This document shows, one piece after another, positions 29,719 through 60,385 of a stretch of 64,000 nt of DNA. Position 1 is the stretch's first letter; each line of letters begins with the position of its first letter. A program made the position numbers and the translations under genes. Below the pieces are notes generated by a model. That model searched no databases and was not told the origin of the DNA. It worked only from the letters and a program-made list of their open reading frames with translations. The DNA lies in NCBI GenBank assembly GCA_034401135.1, contig JAWZSP010000010.1:558001-622000 (forward strand), written 5' to 3'. The stretch comes from Volutella citrinella. Its lineage: Eukaryota > Ascomycota > Sordariomycetes > Hypocreales > Nectriaceae.

Positions 29719-29723
29719 TAAAG

Positions 29724-30549: not shown

Positions 30550-30665
30550 TAAGGTTGCCCTGACCTAGATAAAGAAAATAGAGGAGGGCCCTAATAAAGG
30601 CGGCAACCTAGCGGATAACATAGGTCTAAGCAAGACGATCTCTACCCTGGCCCTGCTTATCTCCT
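30550..30665 (+). pseudogene. SNF2 ATPase motif-I fragment, heavily RIP-mutated second copy
   Basis: In one frame it reads VALT-stop-IKKIEEGPNKGG followed by NLADNIGLSKTISTLALLIS, directly alignable with VALTWMKKMEESPNKGG and ILADNIGLGKTISTL of the copy at 27930-29165, in inverted orientation. Differences include TGG to TAG, ATG to ATA twice and GGC to AGC, all G-to-A. No other SNF2 motifs are recognisable nearby. Confidence 0.75.
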
Positions 30666-30711
30666 AACTACTGCTATCTATATATAAACCTTAATATAAA
30701 CGATACTATTT

Positions 30712-31044
30712 TGTTGGTGAGAATGACAGGCCAAACAAACACCAGCCGTTGTCAGTGTCCCCTGCAGAAACCTGCCGTAGGGTAGCCGAACTTGGGCAAA
30801 AAGCGGAAAATTGCGTGACCTCCAGCAAGAGAACCTCGCAAGATGAACAAAATCTGAATTGACCAGCGGTCTGATCAGACAGAAATAAAGGAGTCCCTGA
30901 ACAGAAAAAGATTGAAGAGGGGGAAAAAATTCTTGTTGATCTAAAGCACTGAGCGAACCTGCTCCTTTTAAGCTACTGACCCAAACGCCCAATTGACCAA
31001 TCCAGCCCAACCACTAAATGCCAGTGTGATCCAGCCGCCACACA
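30712..31044. mobile_element. GC-normal insert within AT-rich DNA, possible solo LTR
   Basis: About 330 bp of ordinary composition inside AT-rich flanks. On + it begins TGTTGGTGAG and ends GCCACACA (TG...CA), but I find no convincing target-site duplication. Read from the right it begins TACAGTGTGTGGCGGC, which could alternatively be a TA-flanked DNA-transposon end. It looks younger than the surrounding RIP-mutated sequence. Confidence 0.3.
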
Positions 31045-31152
31045 CTGTATATAGAAAAATATATTAATAATATTATAGATCGCATTATTGACCCTAAAGT
31101 AGAGCTATAATAAAATCTTATAATAAATAATTACTAGATATTTTAAAATAAT

Positions 31153-32148
31153 ATGCTTGACTTTAATATATTTAGCTCCCTATTCTTAGTCTTATATAAG
31201 GCAGATACTAAGCAGCCCCTCTACTTAATAAGCTTTATCTACTAGCCTAGGGCCTATATCTAGGAGAAGATGTCTTTCACTTATAATATATTTAACAGGC
31301 TAATAAAAGAGTACTTACTAAGGTTTTAGTACAGGCAGAATAATAAGTTAGATATAATTAACACCCTCTAAAAGTACTAGTACAACTAGGGCAATTTTAA
31401 GGGCCCCTGTTACTATTATTAGAACATCTTTCTATAAGACTGTACTAAGGCATACTCTTACTACCCTAGCAAGTGCTTTAATTAGAATATTTTAAAATAT
31501 ATCTAGGTATTCCTATTTAATTCTTAGAGCATTATATTACTATACTTTTTGTATAAATACTAGTTCTTTTCTAGCACTAGCCTTATTAAGAAGAGGGGCC
31601 TGCTTAATAATTTTATTAAGAGGAAGCTTAACTAGATTATAAGTAATAAGCTAAGAGTTAGTGAGTTTTTAACTAATATTATAACTGACTTTGACTAGTT
31701 CTAGAACCAGCTTATAATCCTCCTTACGCAGGATACTCTGCTAATAGTAGTAGTAGCTATAGCACAGTGCCCTAATATCTAAGAAGCAATATGCTAGATC
31801 TACTAGATACTAGACGAGCACCAGGACCGCCTTAAGCTAAGGGGCATCTACTGTATGCAGCCCTTTAGCCACTACTTTAAGAAGGGCTCGTACTACTAGT
31901 ACTACGTGGCCGACTGGAGCTCGCTGATGCTGCCGCTGCGGATCCAGGCGTACGAGGAGCTGCGCGACCAGCGGGCGGCCGAGACGGAGGTGCCGGGCCA
32001 GCGGAAGCAGGGAGCCAAGAGTACTCCGGGTGGGAGTTCCAATTGCGGGAGCCAGGGGACGACGTGTGCGGGTGTCGCCTGTGCGGTGCCCGGCGTTGAT
32101 ACGTGCGGCACGGGTTGCGTTGCTTCGTGTGGGGGGGGGTTGCGGTAG
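31153..32148 (+). pseudogene. Unrecognised gene, RIP-mutated, one frame of 332 codons
   Basis: From an ATG at 31153 (MLDFNIFSSLFLVLYKADTK) one frame runs to 32148 interrupted by 19 stops, 16 TAG and 3 TAA, with no TGA and no frameshift through at least 31980. Between stops the sequence is protein-like: GLLNNFIKRKLN, LRVSEFLTNIITDFD, NQLIILLTQDTLLIVVVAIA, ILDEHQDRLKLRGIYCMQPF, then stop-free YYVADWSSLMLPLRIQAYEE. TAG/TAA without TGA is what TpG-to-TpA and CpA-to-TpA changes make from TGG, CAG and CAA. The last 250 bp is GC-rich. An alternative frame there ends in WEFQLREPGDDVCGCRLCG. No family recognised; it may belong to a subtelomeric or transposon-borne gene. Confidence 0.6.
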
Positions 32149-41496: not shown

Positions 41497-41787
41497 TGTG
41501 AAACAAAATGACGGGGTGTTTTAAGCTGTGAATGAGTTGATATTAGAGAAGAGGTGAACCCGAAAATGGATTTTTTTTGGGGCGGGGTGGGATTTTTATG
41601 GATGAAACGGCGCGCAGTCGTTTTATTGCCATTTCAAAAGGCGGTGGCGGATCACGTGACAATTTTCGCCGAGCAACCAGCCGCTAGTCCGCGACGACCC
41701 CGACCCAGGCAACCAGGGTCGTTGGGAGCTGGGTGGGGGCGCTCGGGCCACGCGCGAGGGGCCGGGGGTCAAGGTCGTTGGAAAACC

Positions 41788-41837
41788 TACTCTTCTATTA
41801 TTAATTGTCGTGTACCCTCAATTGTCGCCTGCCCCTG
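41788..41837 (-). repeat. Transposon-end-like repeat, copy 1
   Basis: 50 bp nearly identical, in inverted orientation, to 60336-60385. Read on the minus strand it begins TA-CAGGGGCAGGCGACAATTG, with the TA at 41838-41839, and contains two AATTGTCG units. The TA-CAG start suggests a terminal inverted repeat of a mariner/pogo-type element; no partner end is seen nearby. Confidence 0.5.
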
Positions 41838-42042
41838 TAAAAATATGGATGTCGTCTAAACCCGGGCTATTTCCGTCATCAATTCTACTCGAGATGCTCT
41901 CCTTGCTTTTTCTTGATTACTCATTTACACGTATTAACGCGTCTCGTCGCGTCTTATCGTGGCACACGTGTTATAGCATGCTTCTTTGCTCTTCGATGGA
42001 CAATTTTATTCTTGAAGACATCACCCGAGACATAGCCCAATC

Positions 42043-43889
42043 ATGGATCTTGATAACATCTTTTACCACGATTCCTTCTGGCGGATTATGATATGTAAGG
42101 AGTGTGAAACTGTACCGCATACCGATCTTTCCCATCATATCCGCCTCTAACACAATCCGATGCGTATTCACAAATCCGCTACAATCAAGTCATTTGTGCG
42201 GACCTTCGATCATCTGGAATTGAGACAAGACCCAAATGAGATCTACAAAGCGGTCCGACCATTGCCAGGTGCCGCGCCTATTCGATTTCTCAGTGTATTC
42301 TACGATGGCATTAGTTGTCAGCTCTGCGAGGATGACACAAGCCGCTATATCTGCCGAGGTCGCACAGCTATTGAAGAACACCTGAGGAAAATACATGGTC
42401 AATCGCCTCGTAAGCCAGGTCGACGATGCAGTGGGTCGATTGGTGGCATCGAGGGGTTGGTTCATGCTGGCTTGGTACGGAATCAGGTGCCGTGTCAAAC
42501 TCTCTTCCGCAACTCTCGATGTCGTTATTTTATGGTTGCCGGCCAGGGAAGTCAGCACCGGCTGGATATAGTCGCAGAAACGCCGCGCCCAGAGGGCAAT
42601 GGGACACACAACGAGCCTAGGCGTTCTGCGTCCGGGCTTCAGGATCTCATAGACCTTGAGCTTGCTAGGCAAGAAGGAGAAGAGCGTTTCACTGCAACGC
42701 AGGAAAATGATTCCATTCACCTCATGTCTCGAGACGTAAGGCACCAATCACAGTGGCTCCAGATGACTGAATGGCCTCGTTTTCTAGAGCCCCATAAGCA
42801 CGAGCTGTGCCATGTTGCCGCATTAACCTTTCTACCTGATTCAGGCAAATCACATGAACAAAGCGTTACAAACAGCTCAGATGCTCTACTATTCATTCTC
42901 CTCGGCTCTCTTGATCGCATTATAGCCCGAGCCCGGCGCTCGCTAAAGGGAGGAAGGCTGAATATATTTGACCAGCACCGGCTTAACTCGTTCATTGCCG
43001 GCCGCTCATCGCAGAAGCCAATCATCCACAACTTGAAGGAAGAGACATACAGGAAGTACGGGCGGGTTCTCCAACACTTACTATGTTACGTCTTTCGCCT
43101 TGCGTGGCAGAAGAAAGGGCCAAAACTGCACTATCGGCTCACCGACGGGCAGGCAGTCGCAATGCTCGAGGCAGTCCGTACGGCGTCAGAGCTAGCTCAG
43201 AGCGATGGCGATGGGCCCAGTCTAGAACAAGCCGAGGAACTCAGGAAGAGACTTGACGATAGATGTCTTGTGTTCATGGTCTCACTCTTGGACCACAAGC
43301 TATACAGCGACATTTACGACAGCATTGTGGTTGGATTTCTTGCCGCAATAGGTATCCGGCCAGGTTCAAGATCTAGCATTGGGCAACAGTTATACGATGC
43401 CGCCGATTTTACTCCCAAGTTATCAGCAATCATCAAAATGGGTCAACTTCTTGTTGCAGAGAGGGCTTTGCTCGCAGTCGAGCTTGATGAAGCCGATGTC
43501 CCAGCCCGAGTGCTGGAAGAGATGCAAGATCGGTTCATGACAAAGGACTCAAGGTCACCGATCAATGGTCGTTGAAGCTTCGCGCCTATGGCAAAGCCAT
43601 CAAGGATAATACAACGAGTCTTGGTCATATCATTTGGTCAGATGACAATGAAATGCTGAGCTATAAGAAGATGCAATTCTCAATGACAGGGCTCCGAAAT
43701 CTTGTCGCTACAGAGGTCAAGGCCGCTCAAAGCCAGTTAGCCGACCTACTTCTCGTCCCACCCGATACTGAGAGGGAAGACATTATACCCAAAATCAGCT
43801 TGCGGTCATTATTAGATGATCCATCGGAGGGTACACCAGGCTGGAACTTTACTCAACATCCACAAAATGAAGTTACTTCTAGTTCGTGA
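42043..43889 (+). pseudogene. OrsD-like / telomere-linked RecQ helicase N-terminal region
   Basis: From ATG at 42043 the frame reads MDLDNIFYHDSFWRIMICKE then CETVPHTDLSHHIRL, a C-x2-C...H-x-HI degenerate finger typical of the DUF3505 (OrsD) N-terminus, and meets a TAA at 42148-42150 (fits CAA to TAA). It continues open from 42160 with LSVFYDGISCQLCED, ICRGRTAIEEHLRKIHG (second finger) and YRKYGRVLQHLLCYVFRLA to about 43540, where a one-base slip shifts it into LKVTDQWSLKLRAYGKAI and ends at 43887. The helicase domain that normally follows is absent. So two lesions and a 3' truncation make it a pseudogene. Such genes cluster at fungal chromosome ends. Confidence 0.65.
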
Positions 43890-44013
43890 TAAATAAAGAG
43901 GAAAACCGAACCCTCGAAGCCGCAGTTTCCTTTCCCCTTATTGTGAGTAGCTTAGAGCCATTCCCAACTTCCTCGATTATTTTGTGATTTGCGCGCTGGA
44001 ATAAAACGGTCCG

Positions 44014-44831
44014 TTGCAACAGTTCCGAGCAACGACTAGTCAAGGCCCTTCTCCTCAAACTGCTGTCGTTCAAAACATATATTTTAAGCCACGTCTCTCG
44101 GATAACGCTGCTCTGTCGTTCCCACTCGCTGATATATTCAGAAGGCTCTATTGGGCAGGCTTTGGAACGCCTTGTGTGCCCTTGTTGCCCACAACTCGAG
44201 CAGGTAGGCGCTGCCTTTGGCCGTATAGCTTCCTCAACGTACTACACAGGCCGCTACAGTCACAGAAACAACAACTCACACAACAACGCGGTCTATCACA
44301 CGCTCAGCATCACCGGCATTGCCTTCCAGCTCCTCGCCAATATCTATCAACGACTACCCAAACAACAACTCGTACAATAATACGTGTGGTGACCCCTCCA
44401 GTGGCCTTGCCACAGCCGGAAGCTCACACTTTGCCATCTGATGACCCAATTGCAATTTTTCAACGATACAAAGAAGGTCGTGATAGTTGGTATAACAACC
44501 TGCCCCGAGCGGCGCTCAAGACCAACCAACAATATCGAAGAGCCATGGGGCTCCCTTTCAATACAGCAAAGAGAAATACCACTTCTGCCTTGACTATAAG
44601 CAGATGGGGAGTAAATGTAGGATCGGAAATAGCATTCGAGACGGGAACAAGGAAGAGATGATGAACTATCTTGATTGGGATGATGCTGAGAATACGCGGG
44701 TTGAGGAGAATGTTGCAAAGGAGCTGGCGGCCCAACCGCATATAGCGCGGCGAGGGATGCAACATATCTCGGGTGGCCATTTTGGGAATGCCCTGCAGTT
44801 TGGAGTGGGTTACGGTTTATTTTCAGGCTGA
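44014..44831 (+). pseudogene. Unrecognised coding remnant in two frames
   Basis: One frame gives FQRYKEGRDSWYNNLPRAAL then KTNQQYRRAMGLP (about 44458-44553); a second, overlapping at about 44560, continues with MGSKCRIGNSIRDGNKEEMM and NYLDWDDAENTRVEENVAKE to a TGA at 44829. Together they read like one protein broken by a frameshift near 44560, about 125 residues. The 5' part (44014-44450) is Gln/Thr-rich. I do not recognise the family. Confidence 0.4.
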
Positions 44832-45034
44832 ATTAATATTGTCATTGATCAAGGGTTATTAAAACCAGTGCAACTACAAGCAAGTCATGAAGAGTTCAGG
44901 GGAGCATGTTCTGTACACTAGTATGCTCTGTTCTGAAGAAAAGCCCACACTTTAAAGTCCGTGCAACCTGCTTAACTGGCAGGCCAATTAAAATGAAGGA
45001 GGCTCGTGCACCAATCCCAAATCTCCCCAACACA

Positions 45035-46093
45035 CTAATTCAAATCCTGATTGACCGTTACGTTATTCCAATTATGCGATATTAAACGGTGCAACTCTCC
45101 GCTCCCTTGGGATGCTTCATAGTTTGCAACCTCAGCGATAGATGCGCACCCATGCTCAGGATACCAGAACACCTCGTCAGTATTTAAGCCGTGTTGTAGG
45201 AGCGCCTTCCAAATCGCTTCTGCATTGCGATCTATACTGTTGGTAGGAAGTCTGGAGCTAGCCGAATTACCGTCGATGTCGGTGATATTGAAGTCAGCTC
45301 CGGCTTCAAGCAACAACGCCACACACCGGGCATCGAGGCTTACAGCAGCCCAAATCAATGCGGTTCGAACCTGGTCACAAAGACAGTCGACACCCGCGCC
45401 CAGGTCGAGGAGTAACTTTACGATAGAAGCCTGGCCACTCATGACAGCATGTATCAGTGCCGGGCGCTTTTCATCTTTATCTTTGTAGTCTCTGTAGGAC
45501 CATTCCAGTATTAGCTTTCGGTCAACAGAAGAAGGCACCTTTTGCACAATCTGGGTGATGAACTCCTTTTGGAGCGCCGTTGCACTCTCGAGGTGCTGGT
45601 CGGGAACCTGACCTCCTTGACTTATGGCCCTGATTGGGGAGATAACACTGAGGTGTATTAGGTCATCCGTTATGGCAGCTTCTCGGTTGAGTAGAGCTTG
45701 CGCCACCCAGAAGTTATGGTTATCAACGGCGAGCTCCACCGGCGTGATTGCATGTCTGCCTCGTTCGTCTCCCCGAGCTCCTCGTTCGATTAGGGCATCG
45801 ACCATTTTTGCAGCGGATGGGGCGAAGCAATACGCAACATGGTGCAGCGCAGTATTTCCATCGTCGTGTATGGGTGAATCATCCTCCAGCACTTTCAAAG
45901 CCAGGTGAAATGCCACCAGATCCGAGTGCGACATTGACCAGCGAAGTAGCTCCGGGTTCTCATTTTGCGCATCTCGTTTGAAGATATGCACGATGCAGTT
46001 TCTCAATATGCGGTTCGTCATGGCTAAGGAGCTTAGATCATCAAAGGATAGGTATCCAATAACCATGGATATCAACTCGTTTGGTAGCCACAT
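45035..46093 (-). CDS. F-box and ankyrin-repeat protein, 352 aa
   Basis: Intact single-exon frame from ATG at 46091-46093. Residues 1-35 (LPNELISMVIGYLSFDDLSS then LAMTNRILR) match an F-box, the SKP1-binding part of SCF ubiquitin ligases. Ankyrin repeats follow: DDGNTALHHVAYCF ... LIERGARGD (about 77-107), HAITPVELAVDNHNFWVAQA (about 113-132), RPALIHAVMSGQASIVKLLL (about 210-229) and RTALIWAAVSLDARCVALLL (about 243-262). The combination is common in fungi, where ankyrins are thought to present substrates to the ligase; the target here is unknown. A solo LTR ends 94 bp upstream of the ATG and could affect its promoter. Confidence 0.8.
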   Translation of the reverse strand: MWLPNELISMVIGYLSFDDLSSLAMTNRILRNCIVHIFKRDAQNENPELLRWSMSHSDLVAFHLALKVLEDDSPIHDDGNTALHHVAYCFAPSAAKMVDALIERGARGDERGRHAITPVELAVDNHNFWVAQALLNREAAITDDLIHLSVISPIRAISQGGQVPDQHLESATALQKEFITQIVQKVPSSVDRKLILEWSYRDYKDKDEKRPALIHAVMSGQASIVKLLLDLGAGVDCLCDQVRTALIWAAVSLDARCVALLLEAGADFNITDIDGNSASSRLPTNSIDRNAEAIWKALLQHGLNTDEVFWYPEHGCASIAEVANYEASQGSGELHRLISHNWNNVTVNQDLN

Positions 46094-46186
46094 TGTGAAG
46101 AGGGCTGGTGCTGGTGCAAGGAACTCAAAACCGTTGACTGTCTGCGAGCCTTGATTCTATGGGGAAGAGCGCCCTTCTTATACTTG

Positions 46187-46565
46187 CGTCCGAATCTGAC
46201 GCCATTGGGCACGGCAAAACCAATCGGACGTAAGTGACCCAAAAGGATCACAACAGTCACTTAGTGATCTCGGTGATCCAATAGGATCACGACGGTCGCC
46301 CAACGAAGGGGCTGCCCCGAGCAGGTACCAAACCACGTAGACTAGTATAAGTAGAACCTACTATACTGCACGATGAAGAGGGCCAGCCTCTTCAGCTATC
46401 GATACAACTTGGTTACCGCAATCTACATTGCTTATTACCGGACGTGACATTCTATTTGCCTCAACCGCCGATCAACGCTCAGCATTACGCCCTGGTGCAC
46501 CTGTCAACATTAACCCCAGTACGATTACTGCTGTTTACATAGTTGGAACCAGCCCGGTCGTCACA
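46187..46565 (+). mobile_element. Solo LTR, 379 bp, with 5-bp target-site duplication
   Basis: Homologous to the LTR at 29724-30164 and flanked by a perfect ACTTG direct repeat (46182-46186 and 46566-46570). It begins CGTCCGAATCTGACG, corresponding to TGTCAGAACCTGACG (first T changed to C), and ends GGTCGTCACA. It carries an internal near-duplicate (AGGATCACAACAGTCAC and AGGATCACGACGGTCGC). No internal retrotransposon sequence. Confidence 0.85.
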
Positions 46566-46923
46566 ACTTGGTTCCTTGCAGAGAATACTCCATGCAGGGA
46601 TCTTTTTATTACCGTGGACAGCCACATTTAGACAAAAGAATCCGTGTGGAAAGAAGGCCACAACTCACTCCAGCCGCCACTGTACTGTACGGTGAACGAA
46701 CGTACGATACTGTTCCAACCTCCAGAGTGGCAATACCGGCTGCAGACTAAGTCCTAGCTAAAGCTGACCGGACCTTGACATTTTCCCTCACTGACAATGG
46801 CAGGAGGAAAGAAGAGCGAGGTAATCCATCAATTATTTGCCTCCACTTCATGCCAGACCTAGACCGATCAATAGCTTCAGGTGGAAGCTGAGGGCGACTC
46901 TAGCTTTTAGCCTGACCGACAAC

Positions 46924-47500
46924 TATCGCGAGAGCAAGATCCCAATGAGCTCCATGAGCCTGGGGCCTACGCCACGACCCCTGTAAAGCCACCCAAATTC
47001 CCATAGCGCAAGATTAGCAAAACCGGGATGAAAAGTAACGCTATCCGACGACATCTGAGCTTTACCATACCCCTGACTCGTCATCGGAGTCTGCGGAGAG
47101 CGTTTCGGCAAAATGGGTCTCGTCCATCTTTCAAGGAATGGATGAAAGGTCTGATGAACCAGCAGCACTTTCGCGCGCGACTTCAACGTCATACCAAGAC
47201 GCAGCCCGAGTCGTCGGCGTGACCCAACAGGGCGAAGCGCGCACATCGACCATGCAGTGGCCGGATGAAGTTCTCAAACTGTTGCGATGACTGCATGACT
47301 TTGCCTGTCGCTATCCAGTCGTCCACCTGCATCTTCCTGGACCGGCCGATGAAGTTTTCCAGTTCCAGGTCGATGGCATGGGGTCCTATGCACCTACCAT
47401 GTCGTGTAGTGAGGGGCTCGATATTGTGCATGCTAGAGTCGCAGTTATCACACGGCACCTCGCCCACCTCGCAGCCACGTCTATCTCCATCCAAATCCAT
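46924..47500 (-). pseudogene. Telomere-linked RecQ helicase, C-terminal region relic
   Basis: Minus-strand reading gives GCEVGEVPCDNCD, then SSQQFENFIRPLHGRCARFA, resembling the Cys-containing tail of fungal telomere-linked helicases (C-x-GE-x2-CD-x-C, later HGRC). A stop separates this from ANLALWEFGWLYRGRGVGPR at the end. The last 100 bp (46924-47023) recur at 51441-51550. Broken and disconnected from a complete helicase. Confidence 0.45.
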
Positions 47501-47789
47501 AACTCAATCTAGTAACGCACAACAGCACCCTCAACCGAGGAACACGCGCACGTTTGGATCAGTTTCAAGTAGCAAGTCTCTGAATACGACAATATATATG
47601 CTCAGCTTCCCGTCTCACCCCGCGCATCCACTCCTATACATAGTCGCACAAAGACCGCAAAAACCCTGCATAGATCACCAAGCGGATGTCAGGCTTGTCT
47701 AACACAAAACCAATCGCAGATATAGCCACAATAAGGCCGCCGCCCCTGACGCTAGAGGACTACCGCCATACCGCCAGCCGCACCCGCTT

Positions 47790-48165
47790 GCCGTCGGCAT
47801 GTCGACTGTGCTATAGTACGCTTCGCGCTGCAGCACATTGGCGAGGTCCTTGGCGTGGGCTGTAGCCTGGACGTATACTATGGCTTTCACCGGCAGGTTG
47901 CGCTCCGTCCATCTGAGGGCAGCGACGCCGAGAGGCATGTAATCTGCGCGTGCCATGACAGCACGGTCGGCCCAAGCTTGAGTAGCTCTGGGCGGGATGT
48001 CGGTCGAGTATCCAAAACGAAGTGGCACTCGTCGAACACGACCCGATCTAGTTGTTACCGGGACCGAAACCTGGCAATGAACTGGCCGAATCTCATTGAG
48101 ACTGCAGACTCGGGCGTGACGATGACAATACTCGCACTCCGCATCAGCAGGCTGTGATGTTATGA
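47790..48165 (-). pseudogene. RecQ-type helicase domain fragment
   Basis: Reads SASIVIVTPESAV (motif Ib region), QLDRVVFDECHF (motif II, DECH) preceded by a TAA that fits CAA to TAA, a decayed motif III, and RNLPVKAIVYVQATAHAKDL (start of the second RecA-like lobe). Between motif II and the second lobe the frame shifts and sequence is lost. Consistent with the telomere-linked helicase family seen elsewhere in the window. Cannot be functional. Confidence 0.6.
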
Positions 48166-48397
48166 TCCTCGCAGCGCTATAATCGGTCGGAAGATGCCCA
48201 AGTCGACAGAGTCAGGAAAGTGGCAATATGGAGTGTGATTGCAATAGCTATTATGTATATTTAGTTGATTTGTGATTGACTATCCTGATCAAAGATATCT
48301 GGTCTTTGGAAGTGAATAAACCCTTGTACCCGACATCAGTCAACCACCTTCGCCTTTGTACATCCTCTACTTAACAGCCAAGCCGTAGATTCTTCGC

Positions 48398-48990
48398 TTA
48401 TACTGAACAATAATCTCCTTCTCTGAGAAATTCCGCCGTGACCCGGTTAAAACAGAATGGCGTATACCCTGGCACTCGAAAAAGACTTAATATTGGTTCA
48501 TGAAACAGCGGCTTAAGATATACCACTCCATTTTCATAGATTGAAATTGGCAACCGATTTGTGGTCCAGGAGGTATCACGAATTATAATCGGACAAGAAT
48601 TAAATCTTGCATGAATAATATTAAGTGTCGCGGTCTTAAATCGTAGTTCAATTGTGGCTTTGCCCACAGAGTGTTCACGCATTGAAGCTTTAATAAGGCC
48701 TAGGTATTTATCATGAGGAATCTCAGCGTAGTCTCGGGTTAAAAGCAACAGATAGAAGTAATCTTCGTCCTTCCTTCGGAGAAGGGCTGGTGATATATTT
48801 GCCGACTTCAGCTCGTTGGCCCAATTATAGTTTTTAAAAAACTGTTCCCACAGCAGTCGATTATCCTTTTGAGGCTTATTTACAGCGCTTGAAAGATGAG
48901 TACTGTATGTGCCAAAATAAAGTTAAGTAAATCTGGGGGAGAAAGCTTGTCAGCTACTTTATGCCAGATGTCGTGATGAAGAGGTGGCAT
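48398..48990 (-). CDS. F-box-like protein, about 176 aa
   Basis: ATG at 48988-48990 opens MPPLHHDIWHKVADKLSPPD followed by LLNFILAHT, an F-box-like start. The frame then closes unless 48842-48903 is removed: this 62-bp stretch begins GTACTC and ends GAACAG and could be an intron, giving exons 48990-48904 and 48841-48398 in phase. However, the putative intron itself reads well in another frame (THLSSAVNKPQKDNRLLWEQ), so an alternative is a coding sequence with a one-base deletion near 48900. The rest (FFKNYNWANELKSANISPAL ... RDYAEIPHDKYLGLIKA ... PIIIRDTSWTTNRLPISI) is open to TAA at 48398. Downstream function unknown. Confidence 0.5.
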
Positions 48991-49055
48991 TATAACTTAG
49001 ATAACCACTTTACTAAACCAATAGAGAGTAAAGTCATTATCAGTTTCCTGACGCT

Positions 49056-49063
49056 TATATATA
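49056..49063 (-). promoter_or_regulatory. TATA box of the F-box-like gene
   Basis: TATATATA, 66 bp upstream of the ATG at 48990, on the coding strand TATATATAAGC. Confidence 0.4.
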
Positions 49064-51440
49064 GTATGTAAAGTGTGGCGCTGTTACTATCTTTTCACAA
49101 CGGCCTAAAAAGAGCCACTTCCGGCCGCCTCACCCTGAGTTCGATTTTATACTGAAAGGTGGGGGGTGGGGGGGCCAAACTGGCTGTGTAGCCAGCACAT
49201 CCCAATTCGACGCTCAGTCGTTCGTTTTGCCAGAGTTCATTCCCTTCCTCGACTTTACAGTACTCAATAAGTGTTGACCGTAACGGGCCCCGTTACGTCT
49301 TCTCGCCCCGTTTGCCATAGATCGACGTGTTGTAGCGGCCCTATGAAGTCTGGAAAGAGTAGCCAATCATTTCCATGCAGCTCGCTCAGTTCTGAGTGAT
49401 AAGTGATAGCACTTGAATCAGATGCATCCTGGGACCCCGCGTATTGGGCGAATTCAGTTTACTGGCAAGAACCACTGAGACCCAAGGTAAGAAAAAGGTC
49501 TTCTATACTGTTCCTTCGTTAGTGAGACTACAAAGACCGTTCTACACGGTGGTTTTCGGGTTCGGGGCTATTTCAATCACTCCATACCCGACTCAGATGG
49601 TCCATGAGAAAGAAAGGGTCTAGGGGGAACCTGGATTGCTGTTGGCCAAGAGGGATAGCTGGGAATTTTACTTCACACGGAACTTGAACACATTTACGTC
49701 ACTTGAAAGGCCAATATTGGACCTGGATGCCGGCTTTGTACCGAGGCCTACTGCCTGGAAGTTCTGTTGCTTAGTTTTAGACTGTTCCAGCCCGAAGCCT
49801 GCACAGATTTTCTTTTTAGAACGGCAATTTCTGGACGCATGGTCTTCGAAGTAGTGAAGCTTACAGTTATTCATTTGAGCCTAGATCCAAATATGGAATT
49901 TGACTATCTCTGCAGAAATCTAGCCGTTTGATCCTCTCCATCTGACGATAAGTCGGGTGAAATGTTGAGTTGCCCATATGCTGGGACTCGGAAGGGTCCC
50001 TGCGATACGGCATCCGTCATTGTTCCACGCCAGATAGCCTGACGGGGACCAATGAGTCTGAATGGACCATGTCCAATTTTCAATAGCCCGGTCAAATTAT
50101 TATTGAATTCAACCGCAAGGCAATGGGCATCCGCAGACAGTAAGAATCCTATGCACGATGACCTGCCCCTTGAATTGACGGATTCCATTACGGGCGAAAT
50201 TACCATAGGAATCAGACAGCCGCAGCCCCGATAAGACACCAAGTCTGCATCGAGATACCTCAACCTAACAACCTATCTGGGCACCCGGTCGAAGAGCGCT
50301 GCAGCAAATCAGATGGCTCGAAAGATGACGAAACCGTGCCAAACGCTGACGTCTAGAGGACGCCACAAAGCAGAAACCGCCGCGTCTCCTGCACATCAGC
50401 CAAACTAGACTACTAGGAAAACTTTCAATATATAACGGCGTATCAGACCAATCATAGGCCATTAGCTCCCGAGGTGCGATCACACCAGCGGCGCTGATAC
50501 ATGGTTGATGGAAGTCCATCCGGCTTGCACAATTAGCGAGAGTGCGATGACGGCTCTGGCTAGGGAAAAGTGCCTTCTGCACTATGCCTGACGACTTACC
50601 CAAGCTCTGGCTGTCTGGTCTGCTCATTAATCGATATCCTATTGTGTTTCGTTTCTTGGCCAGCTTCCATATCTGCTCACAAGCGTCACCAGTAGCCCAG
50701 CTCGGCCTTTTTCTCTTCCCCCCCATAAATGTTTTGTTAACAGAAGCCGTAATTGTAGTAAGCCCCTTGCTTTGGACCTGGCTGACTGGCAACGCGCATA
50801 AAGTTTCTAGCATTGGTCCCATAGTCGTATTGCGGGCATTGACGGCGTCTTTGCGCGGGACTCTGGGGTATTCTCGATGCTCGGCTGCACGGAAGTCCTC
50901 TAGATGACACTGCGCACAAAATGCCGACAAGGGCTCGGCGGCTGGGCTCACCGTCAGCAGTGGCAACCATCGTTAAATTTGCGTATTTACTGAGCTCGCA
51001 TGCATGAGGTACCCCTGGATGCCGTATGAGATCCTTTGGGTTGACGTAAAGTGGAGGGGAGTCGTTGACAGAGAAGCTCTGTGTCTGCAGTGTTGCCACC
51101 CAGGGTGAACCATTTCGAAAAGTTGGTATGCGTATGTCGCACGAAAGGGGAGCACAGGCAAACATTTAGCCATAAAGCCATAATAAATAGAGACATACTA
51201 AGCAAGGTGATGCGATGGATCACCATGAAGATACCTGACTTGATGACACTCACTTTAGTCCATGTGATGGCACTGTAGCCAACTGCTAAGTCATGCCTAT
51301 TCCTACGACGTACGTACAGTGGGCCCTCTTCATGCAATCGCATGTTTTGCCCCGGCGACACCGACAGCGATGCCATGGAAGTGGGACTGGATACTGTTGG
51401 CACCGAGCGGGTTGCCATTGAGCAGGTGTGCATCTAATTC
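49064..51440. other. No confidently assignable gene
   Basis: A minus frame 49904-50263 (GFLLSADAHCLAVEFNNN, GLLKIGHGPFRLIGPRQA) is protein-like and may be an exon or a fragment, but begins at TTG. Another at 50265-50966 is long but not protein-like. No family recognised. Confidence 0.35.
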
Positions 51441-51550
51441 GTTCGCGAGAGCAAGATACCAATGCGCTCCATGAGTTTGGCACGGTGGGAGGCCTACGTC
51501 ACGACCTCCGTGAAGTCATCCGAGTTCTCGCAGCGCGAGATTCGCATAAT
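51441..51550 (-). pseudogene. Telomere-linked helicase 3' end, second copy
   Basis: About 105 bp homologous, same orientation, to 46924-47023 (shared CGCGAGAGCAAGAT, GCTCCATGAG, CCTACG-x-CACGACC). It codes the equivalent of ANLALRELG and is isolated from other helicase sequence. Confidence 0.45.
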
Positions 51551-51682
51551 CTTAGGGTTTATGTGCAACCGGCTGTGCATCTTTGCCCGTATGACCCTGC
51601 CCGACGGGTCGGAAACCTGGCCGGTTTAGGCCGCATGCACGAACAGATAGAAGCGGGCCAGACATTGCTGCGAGTCTAGACC

Positions 51683-52071
51683 CTAGGAAAACGAAGCGGC
51701 AGCGGCGCCCCTACGGCTGGCGTGAATACTGATGGCATAGGCTACCATCTTGCCTGCTTGATAGACAGGAAGGTACTCTGGGATGATTCTGGCTGTCATG
51801 CTAGAGAGAATTCTGATGAGATGGTGTTCGATATCTATTGTTTCACCAGACGGAAGACATACCACGTGGTCGTTCGCAGGCGCGGAGTAACGATGCTGCA
51901 GCTAGACAGGGCAGTCTTCAGAAGAGGTGTATGCACCAAGTTGTTCCAGCTACAGTCCACCTGCCGCGTGCCAGGTAATTTCGGTCGTAGCTGCACGGAG
52001 GGTCCATGGCTTCGGCTAGGAGCACGAGCCACTAAGTCTCGGCGTTTCACCATTATCTCTGAACTTTCCAA
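51683..52071 (-). pseudogene. PD-(D/E)XK nuclease-like gene, fragment
   Basis: Reads CSWNNLVHTPLLKTAL in one frame and, after a shift near 51860, EYLPVYQAGKMVAYAISIHA in another. These match CEASWNNLVHTPLL and HKMVDYAVVLLPD of the intact gene at 58582-59988, in the same order. The Asp of VDY is replaced by Ala, and the E-x-K part is missing, so it could not be active. Confidence 0.6.
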
Positions 52072-53529
52072 CTCTTGGGAACCAAGACTGATAATGGCAG
52101 TGATTGGTCGTACCTACAGGATTTGCAAGCTCGTGCATCAAGCACTTGCAGGTCTATCCGGTCTGGACCGGCAGGTGCTATCACATCTTGGTTCCGGATC
52201 CTCTCGGCTACAGCGGCACAGACCGCCGTGGAAAGTCCTTCATTGGCTTTTGGCGCTTCGAGGTCGTCCGAAGGGTGCGCGCTGGCCTTTGTGTCTTGAT
52301 CAAATGCAGAGCGCAAAAATGCCGTGCGGACACTGATTGTCTCTCATCTCTTCTTTGTCAAATGCTTTAAATAAGCAGAGGTTCTGTGGTTGCAAGCTTC
52401 AGCAAGCTTAAGGTGGCCCTACACTGTCTGCCTCCATCATCAGCGCGCCGAGCCACCCTTCATAGAACAGCTTCCCAGCCCCACGATTCAGGAGCATACG
52501 CTCCGCTAGTCCACCATGGACAGGTTTGCCGTGCGAATAAGAGAGAAGCGGTGCCAGGGTAGAGTTGGTATTCTCGTACTACTGTGTGACCGGTTCGCTA
52601 ATCACCTACAGCTTCTGGTTGATCATTTTGGTCATCTCCCTGCCAAACGCAACTTGGGGCTCTGGAGGCAGTACTGAGTGTATTACTACAGGAGGCAGTC
52701 GAGAAGCGAGAAGAGCAGAAACAAATCGTTAGCTTCATCCAGTCAGTGGCGACTGACACGCAGACCCTCGTGTTGGGGAGCACGTCAAGTAGTCGAATAA
52801 ATAGAGGCAAAGCGGCACCAATAGCGGCCAATGAATGCATTTCAATCCACGTCACTGAGTGGGCACGACAGAGCGGCGTGAGGAGGCCTGGCTCAAATTA
52901 CAGGACTTGCACGAGAGTCGATATCCGACCCGCCGTTTTTGGAATTAGTGGGAGAACCTGGTAAATGCCGGGTTGTATACACGAGATCGAGACGGCCAGA
53001 GTAAAACTAACGATTGTCGCGATACCCCGCATCAACTACAACGATAGTCCGGAATATCATAATTCATAACCGAAGTTGTAGTAGTCTACCCGTTGTAATG
53101 CCTCTTAACGCGATTCTGACGAACAGGGACGTGTGGACGACACAGACGCCCCGAGAGATCAGGCGCAGCCCCGTGTTGTCTTCGCCTGTCTCCGGATGGG
53201 CTGTGTAGTGGAGCGAGATGAGTCCCCGAGAAAGTTCTTCCTACTTCTCAATTCCCGAAGGTGAGCCGGTGCCCTCAGCCGACGAAGCCATGCGTTGGGG
53301 ACGCAAAGTCGCCCTGCTCATCAAACTGGTCACCCTATTTCAACATTGTTTGCTACGCGCTCTCTGCTGCGGCGCCGAAGTGACCTTTTATTATGCTAAA
53401 TAAAATTCCAGTGCTAGAGCATGTAACATGTAAACTTATGGTTGATCTGAGTTCCAATGCATGTTTGTGGGCCAACATGCCATCCCCCAAAGGCTTGGTG
53501 TGTCCCCAGGTATGGCTTGTTGTGTTAAG
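52072..53529. other. No recognisable gene
   Basis: 52072-52320 may hold the decayed 5' part of the PD-(D/E)XK fragment. The remainder has only short frames. Confidence 0.35.
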
Positions 53530-55595
53530 GCACCGAGCTCGTGCATATAGTTTGTAGGCGCATGAGAGTTCTTAGCTTGATTAGCTTTGATCTTAAAGGA
53601 GCCTACAATGGAGTGTGCAAAGAAAGGCTTCTCCAGAGAATGAGAGCAAGAGGCATCCCCGAACAGTTGCTGACGTGGATCGATGCCTTTTGCACCGATC
53701 GAACCGCGACCATTCGTGTCAACGGACAGGCGTCAGAGAAGCGAACTCTACCACAAGCGGGACTGCCGCAAGGCTCGCCGCTGTCGCCGATCCTGTTTCT
53801 GTTCTTCAACGCGGATCTGGTGCAGCAGCGAATTGATTGCTACGGAGGCTCCATTGCATTCGTGGACGATTACACGGCGTGGGTCACGGGGCCCACGGCG
53901 AAGAGTAATCGCACGGGTATGGAGGCGATCATCACAAGAGCCCTTGCCTGGGAGAAGAGAAGTGGAGCAACCTTTGAGGCAGAGAAGACGGCAATCATAC
54001 ACTTTGCCCCCTCCCGTAGGGCACACGCGTCGGATTCAGAGCCATTCATGATCAGAGGGCAAAGTGTGCAGCCTACGGAGCGTGTCAAGGTCCTCGGAAT
54101 GGTCCTGGACTCAGGGCTGAGGTATCGAGAGCACATTGCTCGTGCAGCCACCAAGGGCCTGGAGGCAGCCATGGAACTACAGCGACTGAGGGGTCTTACC
54201 CCCGCGACAGCGCGACGGCTATTCACGACCATGGTGGCCCCGGTCGTTGACTACGCCTCTAATGTCTGGATGCACGCATGCAGGTATAAGAGGATAGGCC
54301 CAGTAAATCGAGTCCAGAGGGTTGGGGCGCAAGCGATTGTGGGGACGTTTCTCACGGTGGCAACGTGGGTAGCTGAGGCGGAAGCGCATATCATAAGCGT
54401 GCATGACCGGTTTTGGAGGCGAGCGGTTACGATGTGGACCGATCTGCATACCTTGCCGACGACAAACCCCCTCCGCAGGACCACATCTTGCATCCGAAAG
54501 TTTAGGAGATTTCATCGCTCCCCGTTTTATGAGATTGCGGTCGAACTCAAGGCTGTACCGTCGGAGGAGCTAGAGACAATCGACCCATTCACAATAGCGC
54601 CCTGGGCAAAAAGGATACAGACCATCATCGAGGAAGACGACGTGTCACGGTCGAGACAGACAGACCTGAGCTGGTCAGTTCGCATTGCAGTGCGCAGCTC
54701 TGCGCGTAACAACATCGTAGGACTTGGTGGAGTCATCGAGATCCCTGTCTCGGTGCGAGGAGGGCCCAAGCTCGAAACGTTCTCATTCACGCTAGGCGTG
54801 AGAACGGAGCAGAACCCGTTCTCTGCGGAGCTTGCGGCGATGGCCTACGCCTTCCGGCATTTACCTGACATGAGATATCGCAGCATTGCAGTGTTAACGA
54901 GTAACAAGGCCGCCGTATTGGCAATGGGTAATCCTTGCCAACAGTCAGGCCAAGAGTTCGTTCGCTGTGCTTATAAGTCGCTTGAGTCACAAAAGGAGAG
55001 GGGAAACACGGTAGCTATCATGTGGGTGCCAACCAACGACCAACACAGACTCCTTGTAAAGGCTAAGAGTCTTGCACGGAAGGCAACCCGAGAAGATGCG
55101 AACCCGGCACTCAAATTCCCCGGCATGCGGTCTACGACCCTCAACATTGCACGGGCACGCCAAGCCACTAGTGGAGCACCCCCAGACAAAGTAGGAAAGT
55201 TTTCTAAGAAGATTGACATCGCACTACCTGGTAAACACACACGAGAGCTGTACGACAAGCTGTCATGGAAGGAAGCCAGCATTCTAGCACAGCTCAGGAC
55301 AGGCATGAACAGGTTGAACGGATATCTATTCCGGATCATGGCAGCATCGTCACAGCTGTGCGCATGTGGTCAGGCGGCAGAAACGGTCGACCACTTTCTC
55401 TTCCGGTGCCAGAAATGGGCCCAACACCGAGCTGAGCTCTACAATTGCATGAACATGAAGAGAGGGAATCTATCATTCTTTCTAGGGGGTAAATCACTTT
55501 CGGACGACGAGAAATGGACACCCAATATGCAAGCTGTCCATGCAACGATTCGGTTTGTCATTGCCACCGGGCGTTTTGATAATGCGCAACATTGA
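53530..55595 (+). mobile_element. 5'-truncated Tad-type LINE; RT / RNase H frame open
   Basis: An open frame of about 680 codons (first ATG 53562) encodes the C-terminal part of a non-LTR retrotransposon ORF2. It contains SFDLKGAYNG (RT motif A), AGLPQGSPLSPILFLFFN (motif B), AFVDDYT (motif C, the catalytic Asp pair), a thumb region, an RNase H-like part (GLGGVIEIPV ... SAELAAMAYAF ... VLTSNKAAVLA) and a C-terminal zinc knuckle CACGQAAETVDHFLFRC. The endonuclease and first RT motifs are missing, a TAA just upstream ends the frame, and this is the usual 5' truncation of LINE insertions. No internal stops or frameshifts, so the copy is young or was spared RIP. It cannot transpose alone. Confidence 0.85.
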
Positions 55596-55899
55596 ACCCA
55601 GATTGGGCTAACACCCACCTTTCACTAACCTACCCTAAAGCGACTATCTCGTCGTGGGACAGCAGGCGCCGCTTCAGTCGCCGTAGATAGGACTCTGGAC
55701 ACTTGGAGAATCGCCTTCAAGTAGGCTTGCTGGCAATACAATATTTCCCTCGCGGGGATAAGAAGGATGAAGAGATATGAACACAAAGGCCGAAATTGGA
55801 CTTGCGTAAGGGCTACCAGGAGACATGACTACGTTGTGGAACCAAGTCTGTACCATAGCAAAGAGTGCCCTATTGGCTGTGAGCCACCGGGCGTAATAA

Positions 55900-55901
<2 letters not shown>

Positions 55902-55932
<31 letters not shown>
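55902..55932 (+). repeat. (TG)n microsatellite
   Basis: About 15 uninterrupted TG units at the boundary between ordinary sequence and the ApT-depleted block. Confidence 0.95.
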
Positions 55933-55933
<1 letters not shown>

Positions 55934-55934
<1 letters not shown>

Positions 55935-57363
55935 CCCGTCCTTCAACTACCACCCTCTTTTACACACCACAACCCCAACCAGCGCTTGACCCCGACAGCG
56001 CCTACCTCCTCCTGCTCGCACTAGACGCCAGTAAAGACGCCCACTGTTACTTTTGTTTACACAGCAAACAACCCCGTCAACTACAACCACCCTCCTTCAC
56101 CACCCTGTACGCTCCAACCCGAGCTGCCTCTACTCTACCGCCGCCGCCCACACAGCGCTCAGTCTCCCTCTTTAACCTTACACGTTAGTTTTCTCACCCT
56201 CTACCCCTCTAACTCTCCTCCTTCTACCCTTGCTCTGTTCCTCCGTCCAAAACTGGACCACACACCCACAACCACCCACCCCGACATTCTCTCCTAACCC
56301 TCTTTCCTCCCTCCTCGAACCACCACTCTGTCTAAACTGAACTGAACCTTCGCCTCTTGTTACTCTACTAGCCGCAACGTTGACACTACTTACAGCTACT
56401 ACAGAGACAGAACTCACTTGAACACCCACCCGCCTCTTTTCTCGCTCTTTCACCTCCTTGCTCTGCTTCCTCACTCTCAACTGCTAACCCACTGTCTTCT
56501 TTCCAGCTACAACGACTCCCTCTGCCGACAAGCCTTAAACTACCTTTACTGCCTTCCCTGCCTTCCCTGCTCTACCTTGCCATTGTCCTCTTCGAAGCAA
56601 CACTACAACACTACAGCCACCTTACAACGACACTCTACAACCCAGTCCCTTTCCTTGACTCGCACCTTACCTCTAAGAACACCACGTTCTCTCTTCAACT
56701 CTACCGCTTAGCGAAAACGTCACTCTTAGGCCCCTTGGCCACCCCGCCCTAGCCCTCGAACCCTTACACTTTAAACGCCTTCCTTCAACGCCCACAACAC
56801 CCTTCTAGCCCTTAGACCCTAGTCTCTCCTCTCTTCTCTCCTACAACGCTCCTCTTTCCACTAGTCAGAAGCTAGTCTCGCCTTCTCTTCAGTTCAGTCA
56901 CGCTCAGAACCTACCCTGCCACCTCCCACGCTTGCACCACCTAAGAGTACTACCGGGCTTGCTTAAACGGCCACCCCTCTGCTTCTTACCTCTTCCCTAC
57001 CGTGCTTCTCAGCCCTCTACAGCTCTTCTCAGACTTTCCTCTTAGCAGCACGCCGTCCGAAGCCGCAGTCGCGCCCCCCGAGCGTCAGAGGTTAGTTTTA
57101 CTGCCTTTACAGCTCTCCTCTGCCTTTGCACTCTTCAAACTAGACCTCCACGCCTAGAAACGACTAAGTGACCCTTGCTTCACCGCCTCCTACTCTCGCC
57201 ACTCTCCACCTTCCTTCTGTCTCCTCGTTCTTCTTTCTGACACTCCGTTGGTACTGCTGTGACTTTCTTCTAACTGTCAGCCGTTAACCTTTACCAGAAG
57301 CTCAGCACCTACTTTCACGCCTAAACGGCCACTACGCCCTTCCCATACGCTAGAGGTTGGTCA
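55934..57363. other. ApT-depleted, pyrimidine-rich block, no gene
   Basis: By eye I find only three ApT dinucleotides in this stretch (56286, 56582, 57345), leaving runs of about 384, 294 and 761 bp with none. The + strand is rich in C and T and ApC is very common, whereas TpA, TpT and ApA are present. No ATG can exist on either strand except at those sites. Frames open here are therefore by-products of composition. See findings. Confidence 0.75.
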
Positions 57364-58581
57364 AAAAGGAGCGGTCGCTAGGGATGTAGATAGTAGGGGA
57401 GCAGAGGCAAATGTGGGCTATTTTTCTAGTAGGAAGTATATGTGTTGAGCTGGTCTCATTGTCTATGCCTCGCTGCTGTGCCACATAGCTGTTTCTATTC
57501 TAACACAGTCCGCATCATACAGCCGCCTTCGAGTGAATGCCCTGTGACCGATCGATTTCGCCCCCTTCGAGACCCCCCGGGGGCCGACTAGGGTCGGCTA
57601 GGCGGGCAGCAGCTCTGCCGTCTCTGCGTCAGCTAGGTGAATTGCGGCCGTGCAGCCACCAGGCAGCCAAGGGGAGAGGAGAAAAGAGAGCAGGTAATTT
57701 AAGACTGGAGGCGTCCATAGGACAGGGTAGAGCCCTTGTTTATTAAATCAGGTATACAGCGGTAGACCGAACTAGTTGGCTGGCCGGCCGGCTAGCTCTC
57801 TCGCTGGCATATACTAACGTCCCCCAGCTTAGACCGGGTTTCTACTGCATATGATCATAATTTCAGGGGAATAATACTTCTCAGCCTTATTATTATTGCT
57901 GTTTTCTTCTCGCAGTAGCGTCAGTACTAAATAGGGACGCCGCGTAGCCAGCTGGCTGAGTTGAGTGCCCTATTAGGAGGACGGGCTGTGATCGAGGCAG
58001 GAGAGCTGGGGGGTGGTCCTGGTTGCCGTGGCTCCATAGTGGCATGCAATGAGGCCGGAGGCTTGTTTCGAGGATTTGCAGTGCTTTGTCCTCGTTGCTT
58101 TTTACTACGCGACGTAGCATTCCCCTGCCGCCCCCTCCTTAGCTTGCTGCTGTACCTATGCTGGGATTGGTCCTCCCAACCTCCCTGCTGCCCACTCGGC
58201 GGCGGTGGAGGAGGAGGAGATGAGGGAAATGGCGAGGATGGAGATGGGACAGATTCTAAGGGCGATGGCACCTGGTCGAGGTCGATGACGGCAGTCTCTG
58301 GCGGTGCCTGGTTGTTACCCTTGTCTTTTTTTTTTAGCGCCGCTCGCGTTCGCTGGTGGCGCCGCCCTGCCAGGATGGGCGCGCGTACTCTGCCTGCCGG
58401 CAGTCATCAGCTGCAGCGCCTTCGCAGCCTGATCCCGGTCGGCCTGCTCGCTCCTGTCCACTGGCGTCGGCGGCAGCTGGTGTCCCCCCCTCGGGGCCTT
58501 CCATCCAGAGCCAGCGTCAATGATAACAACGTTGCTCTGCCCTATTGATGATTGGTTATTCTGTTCATTGCTGCTAGATCT
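57364..58581. other. No confident gene; possible Pro-rich minus-strand remnant
   Basis: Normal base steps resume at 57364. A minus-strand frame from 58548 (NVVIIDAGSGWKAPRGGHQL, SEQADRDQAAKALQLMTAG) breaks at a TAA next to an A10 run (about 58328) and continues ETAVIDLDQVPSPLESVPSP to 57927. It may be the tail of a larger protein. Confidence 0.3.
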
Positions 58582-59988
58582 TCATGAAATGGCCCGAGAT
58601 AGAAGCGAGGTAAACCAGGGCTCAAAGGTCTTCTTGACCCAATCACCAAGCGCAAGCATAGCAGCCTGCAACTGGTAAACGCCAACAATGGTATCAGTAT
58701 CACCAATCCGGAAACTCCAATCAATAACACGCTGCCAGCTGTTAGAAAATAGTTTTCAAGACAAAAGTTTTACAAGGCTTACAATCTCGGTGCCAGCGTC
58801 CACTACAAAGAGAAGCGTCCACACAGCCCCGACGACCTGGATGACGGGGATGGTGATGACGCGGTGGTTTCCGCCGCCGAACTCGATGATGCTGCGCATC
58901 CGCTGGTGCCACGCCGCAACCCAGATGCCGAGCTGCACATTCGCCGTCTCCATGTTGCCCGCAGCCGTCTTGGTCTCGATGAAGATGGGCGCCGGACACG
59001 TGCGCAGCGGCTCGTACCTGGACTGGTTGATGGTCGCCATGGTGTGCGGCTGCCTGGCCAGGAACGTGTCAATGGCGCTCTCGAGGTCAGCATCAGGAAG
59101 CAAAACAACAGCGTAGTCGACCATCTTATGGACGCCCACAGCAGCCGTAGTCTTTGGCGTTCCTGGATCCTGGCCAGACGCACTGCTTGCACTGGACACG
59201 CTCGCCGCGTCGCCGGTCTTGGTCAGCGGACGGAACGCAGGCATGATGCGTGCAGAGGGAATGGGCTCGACTTCGAGATGCGCAAAGCTTGATAGTGTGT
59301 GCAGGAGGAGCGGCGTGTGCACGAGGTTGTTCCAGCTGGCCTCGCAGCGCCTGTGGTTGGCGGAGCGCGTGGAGCCGTCGAGTATGTTGCGGAGAGTTGC
59401 GTAGTTGGTCAGAAGCGCCGCCTCATCTTCATCTTCAGTGCACGGCCTCCACATGTGGCCGCGGACCCGGCGGAAATCAGGATGCGCTCGCAAACCTTCT
59501 GGAATGATGCCCTCCTTGTTCTCAACTGCCGACAGAGCCGTAAAGAGCGGCTGCGCATCCTCGGGAAGAGCACTCTCTGGGTCAGGCTCTTTCATGAATC
59601 GCACGGGGACGGCGAGGTCGAGCAGCTTGGCCGTCGTACGGAACTGCTTCGAGGGCGATATGCTGCGCGACCGTGGGGCCAGCGGCAGAGTTGTGGGAGC
59701 TGAGAAGGGCAGTCCGCTGGAAAGGAGCGCAGTGAATGAGGACTTGGAATGAGTCGACGTTGCATCGTCAAAGACGGCTTCGTCGCTCTCGAGTCTGAAA
59801 GGCTGGTGCGGGGGGCGTGTGGGAGTCTGGTCAGGGTCTGGGGGAGGAGGATCGCTCGTCCGCGCCCGCTTTGATGGGCTGGGCATTGCGTCGGTGTCAG
59901 AGTGGCGCCGTCGATGGGCCTTGGGTTGCGGTGCTGTGGCAGAGTCTTGCACTTCGTCAACCCACGCCTGGATGATGAGGGAATGCAT
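58582..59988 (-). CDS. PD-(D/E)XK nuclease-like protein, 451 aa
   Basis: Two exons (59988-58783, 58731-58582) with a 51-bp intron (GTAAGC...CTAAC...GGCAG) give 452 codons including the stop. The N-terminal 110 residues are disordered and basic (AHRRRHSDTDAMPSPSKRAR). The conserved part starts at about 150: CEASWNNLVHTPLL (215-228), KMVDYAVVLLPD (288-299), IFIETKTA (335-342) and VQLGIWVAAWHQR (351-363). Asp 291, Glu 338 and Lys 340 fit the D...E-x-K triad of the fungal PD-(D/E)XK-like family (PDDEXK_10 type). Exon 2 adds RVIDWSFRIGDTDTIVGVYQ and WVKKTFEPWF, which also occurs at the C-terminus of that family. Activity has not been shown for most members. A decayed relative lies at 51683-52071. 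Confidence 0.8.
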
Positions 59989-60313
59989 ATCCAGAGGTGG
60001 ATGTGTGATGCAGTGAAAGCATTCGAGGAATGACAGCGGGCAGTTTTTGGGCTAGACGCGGCTGGCGGGAGACCCAGCTTGATGGCTGGGTGTCGCAATA
60101 TTGTTTGTTTTGATTAGCTTGGTGTTGCCGCAATGCCCGGCCGGAAAATTGCAAATCCGGGTCGACCTGACTGGGGTTGGCTGATTACATAATACGCTAG
60201 CTGTTGGCGGCGGCTGCTGAACAGAGTTCGCGCTCGCTGAGTGGAGACAGCTCGTTTTATCCGTGGTACGATTGGCTGAACCGAAAACCGACAACCTACC
60301 GATAAACCCATCA

Positions 60314-60337
60314 CCTACCAAGGGAATACTTGGTAGG
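60314..60337. repeat. Perfect 9-bp inverted repeat with 6-nt loop
   Basis: CCTACCAAG - GGAATA - CTTGGTAGG. Its right arm abuts the transposon-end-like repeat at 60336-60385. It could be a hairpin or a footprint of insertion. Confidence 0.7.
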
Positions 60338-60385
60338 GGCAGGCGACAATTGAGGGTACACGACAATTGATAATAGAAGAGTAGG
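60336..60385 (+). repeat. Transposon-end-like repeat, copy 2
   Basis: GGGGCAGGCGACAATTGAGG and following bases, inverted relative to 41788-41837; preceded by TA at 60334-60335. The CA after TA in the other copy is absent here. No matching right end was found within 1 kb. Confidence 0.5.

Follow-up and report, generated by a model that had tools for sequence, protein, structure and literature searches.

A 1.4-kb block of DNA in Volutella citrinella lacks almost every ApT dinucleotide. We consider it probable that this block derives from a chromosome end, that its ApT was purged by a process specific to ends, and that it is now carried within a repeat. The block lies in a stretch of 64,000 nucleotides (the window, C10:558001-622000) on the 778-kb contig C10 of a 45.1-Mb genome assembled into 26 contigs. 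Coordinates within the window are collected in Table 1.

An earlier sequence-only reading had placed three ApT in this block against a far larger expectation. Exact counting bore this out, the only ApT starts within 55901-57383 being 56286, 56582, and 57345. The third of these straddles the last base of the interval 55902-57345, which contains two complete ApT compared with about 77 expected (0.199 x 0.267 x 1443), an odds ratio of 0.03. Taking 75 as the expectation, the Poisson probability of the deficit is about 8e-30. The longest ApT-free run in the block is 763 bp, while the longest elsewhere in the window is 135 bp. The ApC excess reported for the + strand was also recovered (1.41), but it is not particular to ApC, since ApG (1.50) and CpT (1.40) are raised as well. 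The dinucleotides TpA, ApA, and TpT are unremarkable, as had been stated, and GpG is low (0.38). The + strand contains 41% C and 13% G, giving a GC skew of about -0.6. The edges are as sharp as originally described, with the (TG)n tail of a LINE on the left and a right edge between 57345 and about 57352.

RIP depletes CpA and TpG and makes TpA. The block shares with RIP a fungal host and a dinucleotide signature in repeats; however, its ratios for CA (0.94), TG (1.20), and TA (0.97) are ordinary and the change favours one strand and runs towards C, in agreement with the initial view that RIP is not responsible. ApT is at zero or nearly zero in all three phases of the block, which rules out a codon effect as the cause. 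The lack is a nearest-neighbour effect, with A-to-T at a distance of 3 also lowish (0.71). With ApT fixed at zero, the remaining dinucleotides fit near-independence, and the second-order statistic of the block is 46.7 compared with a median of 46.5 for 43 other windows. But for the missing ApT and a milder shortage of GpG, the block resembles ordinary DNA. Autocorrelation and k-mer tests found no tandem unit in the block. Degenerate telomere repeats were rejected as the nature of the block, as telomere hexamer words are not enriched (8 versus 8.7 in simulations). Neither CCCTAACCCTAA nor its complement was found near the window block, the left side of which is occupied by the LINE.

Several other origins were rejected. 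A coding origin is not supported by the eight ORFs of the block, which have no Pfam match, two of them being without protein relatives at E up to 10. For an RNA origin, a search of Rfam at E up to 1 gave nothing. A phage or plasmid origin found no match in phage and plasmid records; one exact 22-mer was absent from viral contigs. A template jump with the LINE was dismissed as there is no clear target-site duplication and the only shared 10-mers lie away from the LINE start.

Table 1. Features in and around the ApT-poor block (window coordinates)
Feature	Position	Strand	Evidence or remark
ApT-free, C-rich, G-poor block	55934..57345	+	composition; relation to chromosome ends
Block part homologous to C10:653001-654300	56782..57182	+	nhmmer E 6.8e-10, L048 about 1817-2152, same strand; also in the two other copies
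LINE tail (TG)nTA, left edge of block	55902..55933	+	like tails end LINE copies without the block
LINE-type retroelement, 3' part	53566..55933	+	91.7% to another C10 stretch
LINE ORF with RVT_1	53541-55595	+	Pfam RVT_1 E 2.9e-16
Block-carrying repeat	41786..60385	.	three copies on C10, about 99% identity across 18.5 kb
Left terminal inverted repeat, about 51 bp	41786..41836	+	inverted counterpart at 60335..60385
Right terminal inverted repeat, about 51 bp	60335..60385	-	not found in copy B
ORF, 471 aa, weak OrsD	42160..43575	+	Pfam; 30% over 150 aa, E 5e-14 to helicase ORF near second block
Right flank of block, ordinary ApT	57346..58755	+	no likeness to second block's flank (P 0.73)
PD-(D/E)XK nuclease-like ORF, 410 aa	58756..59988	-	PF20516 E 1e-45

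The repeat that carries the block is 18.5-18.6 kb long with inverted ends, and its copies occur in both orientations. Among the hallmarks of a TIR DNA transposon, terminal inverted repeats and several copies were found (the right end was not found in copy B). No transposase was detected among the 12 ORFs checked against Pfam, a subset of the ORFs of the repeat, and no clear target-site duplication was found at the repeat. Copies A and C share common DNA past the right end. The LINE 3' end is present at nine places, all on C10; at the six that lie outside the three repeat copies, other DNA follows and there is no ApT-free block. A helicase gene is absent beside the window block, where the PD-(D/E)XK ORF lies to the right and the ORF at 42160-43575 is partly related to the helicase near the second block described below. 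The nuclease-like protein shares 97% identity with a protein of Fusarium ambrosium and 96%, over 57% of its length, with one of F. decemcellulare, while the next relatives that span nearly the whole query reach 59% or less. These identities raise the possibility of horizontal movement of the repeat.

Comparison of the three copies shows how the block changes at present. There are 10 variants among the copies in the 1412 bp of the block, compared with 168 in 17,120 bp outside it. ApT-creating variants account for two of the 10 (56286 in the window copy and 56963 in copy B; neutral expectation 0.15), and position 57312 is ApT in two copies and missing from the window copy. Over the 1412 bp, copies B and C contain three and two ApT, respectively. 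The present copies fit neutrality, with ApT returning at the neutral rate and no constraint visible there. Given one or two ancestral ApT and no removal, the ApT-free state would date back no further than about 2-3% divergence (95% bound). A less-altered copy of the block was not found in the assembly by BLAST; one changed only at ApT would exceed 90% identity.

A scan for missing dinucleotides covered 134 kb of C10 beginning with the window, two 40-kb stretches with the other copies, and 14 loci. It identified one further strong ApT gap, C10:653001-654300 in locus L048 (the 653-kb block), with 6 ApT versus 36 expected in the best 600 bp and a ratio of 0.39 over the whole 1.3 kb and 0.24 in the core. 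The strand that is C-rich and G-poor is the same as in the window block, and the 16 dinucleotide ratios of the two blocks correlate at 0.77. Among the matches listed, the 653-kb block matches in pieces (77-89%) at least 21 of the 22 ends of contigs C1-C11, and the end matches of its best piece, again among those listed, have identical scores. The end matches sit about 0.2-3 kb from contig starts; for contigs other than C1 and C10, the match pattern suggests that the right-hand match places are contig ends. An ORF of 1254 aa with DEAD and Helicase_C domains (L048 4696-8460), some 2-3 kb away from the 653-kb block and about 2.4 kb inward, encodes in our reading a putative helicase of the RecQ or telomere-linked-helicase type. 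A copy of the chromosome-end piece was also seen 11 kb inside C6 (C6:11155-11324), with a score equal to those of the terminal copies.

The lack of ApT was observed directly at a chromosome end. The piece C1:480-979 (500 bases, one end only) contains 2 ApT versus 28 expected, and its 345 non-tandem bases, which are followed by a TAGTCG/TAGTTG-rich tract, contain none versus 17.7 expected (P 2e-8). Its C content is 0.286 overall and 0.371 in the non-tandem bases, compared with 0.41 in the window block. The end piece and the window block have in common an ApT-poor, C-rich strand. They differ in that GpA is nearly absent (1 versus 10) and GpG not low in the end piece, the reverse of the window block, where GpG is low and GpA is not. 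The equal match scores suggest a similar ApT state at ends other than that of C1.

Judged by sequence comparison, the window block is a distant homologue, and not a plain copy, of the end sequence of this genome. With the 653-kb block as the query against about 213 kb, nhmmer returned the end piece (E 5e-34) and the three window-block copies (E 7e-10 to 4e-9), and no other match below E 0.29. In the converse search, which started from the window block and left its own copies masked, only the 653-kb block was matched at E up to 10 (E 3e-6), and the end piece C1:480-979, although part of the target, gave no match. The nhmmer bias correction was large (49 bits). Local alignment of 56516-57224 with L048 1560-2198 gave a score of 188, whereas 300 double shuffles reached 135 at most, and under another scoring 91 compared with a shuffle maximum of 58; the reversed control reached 48 and 35 under the two scorings. 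Under stricter scoring, the score of the window block against L048 was reached by 2 of 100 shuffles. Direct alignment of the window block with the end piece was above shuffles under one scoring (P 1e-4), while under the other it beat 200 end shuffles but not 200 block shuffles. BLAST of the window block found no match at chromosome ends at E up to 10, and the best-matched part of L048 (1817-2152) lies between, not inside, its end-matching stretches. As BLAST gave no match at the ends and nhmmer none to the end piece, the window block is assigned only as a distant homologue of the end-matching block.

The divergence between the two blocks bears on when ApT was lost. They differ at 27% of 599 aligned sites, and the aligned part of the 653-kb block contains 10 ApT versus 36.6 expected. 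An ancestor that was ApT-free by accident would have led to about 18 new ApT in the 709 aligned bp of the window block. Only one is seen (P 3e-7, or 1e-3 if only a quarter of the divergence fell on the window-block branch). This implies that ApT was removed throughout, until shortly before the present copies, which fits a force that acts at chromosome ends and ceases once the sequence is internal. The ApT odds are 0.00-0.07 for the end piece, 0.03 for the window block, and 0.24-0.39 for the 653-kb block, presumably an older capture.

We examined the kind of change with mutation models, for which 362 overlapping ordinary windows, taken on both strands, served as the reference. A change of ApT to GpT on the + strand is excluded, with none of the 362 ordinary windows fitting as badly. 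T to C after A is acceptable, as a fit no better than that of the block was seen in 27% of ordinary windows; the corresponding values were 36% for A to C before T and 63% for a half-and-half mix of ApT to ApC and ApT to CpT. Equal T-to-C and A-to-G change gave a poor fit (7%). These fits imply that the + strand gained mainly C. The strand bias proposed in the sequence-only reading is thus upheld and its T-to-C change after A is acceptable, but A-to-C before T and the mixture fit too. A test of the bases that follow AC was discarded as proof of T-to-C change, since 12% of 170 ordinary windows were as extreme. Derivation of the block, by one substitution class, from the part of C10 covered by this test was also rejected; in nine reduced alphabets the longest match exceeded the reversed control by at most 4 bases, being longer in two, equal in one, and shorter in six.

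These observations can be combined in a model in which the ApT lack would have arisen and persisted during the time that the lineage spent at chromosome ends; there, an end-specific, strand-biased process would purge ApT and recombination among ends would spread the ApT-free result. Because the C-rich + strand gained C and G is scarce there, we prefer a form in which the exposed G-rich strand is mutated and the C-rich strand gains C at ApT. The block would then have left a chromosome end and now be carried in the 18.6-kb repeat on an accessory-type contig, the LINE having inserted on the side that once faced the telomere. This side would be to the left of the block, with the C-rich strand as the + strand, judging by how the homologue is oriented at left-hand ends and by the usual strand orientation of telomeres. 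Once the block was internal, the purge would stop and ApT would return slowly by ordinary mutation. We suggest, tentatively and with somewhat less than even confidence, that a hitherto unknown position-dependent, strand-biased removal of ApT operates beside telomeres and that ApT content serves as a clock of the time since leaving the ends. Counting against this model, besides the absent direct matches at the ends and the GpG and GpA differences given above, is the C-rich stretch at the interstitial CCCTAACCCTAA (L012 8388), which is not ApT-poor; the interval L012 8201-9200 (C10:630201-631200), which holds this sequence, is C-rich and G-poor with ApG at 0.42 and ApT at 1.07. The window block aligns with L012 8381-10000 (A-coordinates 72381-74000) no better than shuffles do, and interstitial telomere words at A-coordinates 81507-81894 sit in DNA of ordinary ApT content.

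Selection on end transcripts or end-binding proteins is a real rival to mutation, although we judge it rather unlikely. ApT could be excluded at ends if transcripts from them, TERRA or its antisense, had to be free of start codons and of TATA-like and AATAAA-like signals on either strand, or if an end-binding protein had to be spared ApT. Removal of ApT eliminates ATG from both strands, and the joint rise of ApC, ApG, and CpT with near-independence of the other pairs suits long purging by any route. Pressure on ATG, however, would leave ATA, ATC, and ATT, and the present copies are unconstrained, though they are off the ends. Alternatively, no removal is needed if a telomere-adjacent family grew from an ApT-free seed of degenerate CCCTAA-type repeats and was homogenised among ends by conversion. 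Like the block, the CCCTAA unit is rich in C, and both AT and GG are missing from it; the ends, which match pieces of L048 with identical scores among the matches listed, look homogenised. The absence of telomere-word enrichment and the 27% difference between the window block and L048, too much for a lack of ApT to persist without removal, make such a founder effect improbable.

The remaining alternatives do not involve telomeres. Hypermutation of ordinary cargo DNA in place, by a deaminase-like cluster or a RIP-like process on ApT, would account for the sharp edges, the strand bias, and the kilobase scale, and for the block a change of T to C after A gives a fit comparable to that of ordinary windows under their own model. 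Change of the block where it is now located is nevertheless not supported, given the same lack of ApT in the piece from a real chromosome end and in the end-related second block, and the neutral gain of ApT in the copies. The homology to L048 and the absence of a less-altered copy in the assembly also count against hypermutation in place, which we regard as very improbable. An assembly or base-calling artefact, or synthetic DNA, is barely credible; no point in its favour was found, there is no phage or plasmid match, and the three copies, in both orientations and 99% identical, carry ordinary differences. Assembly error, raised at the outset as a possible refutation, is accordingly very unlikely.

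The inferred process can be compared with known systems. In early-diverging fungi, 6mA occurs in the ApT context. The likeness, as far as the literature searched describes it, is a process that recognises ApT; 6mA, however, is a DNA mark and is only hypothetical for the window block. To our knowledge, 6mA is not known to remove ApT. Telomere-linked helicase genes at chromosome ends are described for Fusarium, and subtelomeric sequences with such genes for Fusarium, Magnaporthe, and Metarhizium, in passages of PMC12857005 and PMC11499160 (citing Gao 2002 and Inglis 2005). The end-shared sequence and nearby helicase ORF at L048 resemble these subtelomeres. In contrast, those passages mention no exclusion of ApT, and the window block, internal and strongly diverged, lacks an adjoining helicase ORF. 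The FoTeR and MoTeR telomeric LINEs, as described in parts of PMC12857005 and PMC7367193, share with the window LINE a 3' end that faces telomere-adjacent DNA. Contrary to FoTeR 3' ends, which are followed by TAACCC repeats in the relevant passage of PMC12857005, the window LINE ends in a (TG)n tail, and unrelated DNA adjoins its other copies. While the kind of sequence is itself known, a near-total ban on one dinucleotide in telomere-adjacent DNA was not met in the portions of the literature searched, nor was any described fungal process with such ApT loss, in line with the initial reading. If true across ends and species, the exclusion of ApT would indicate that chromosome tips are subject to a mutational or selective force not recognised so far. 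It would also offer a simple test for once-terminal DNA and an aid in tracing accessory chromosomes built from old ends.

Other dinucleotide gaps were also seen. An open 668-aa OrsD-type ORF on the - strand (L012 2406-4412, C10:624406-626412) avoids CpT on its coding strand, with ratios of 0.19, 0.27, and 0.27 by codon phase and 7 Leu CTN compared with 28 TTR codons; the neighbouring 1233-aa OrsD ORF has ordinary CpT. The shorter ORF is a second one-dinucleotide gap, here in coding sequence. Within the window, positions 29463-31727 are AT-rich, contain no CpG over a run of 646 bp, and are low in CpA and TpG, a pattern that looks like ordinary RIP. An extreme RIP-like signature was found in locus L034 (around C9:132135), where CpA and TpG are each 0 versus 18 expected in 600 bp, and this stretch lies near a relative of the terminal sequence of the 18.6-kb repeat.
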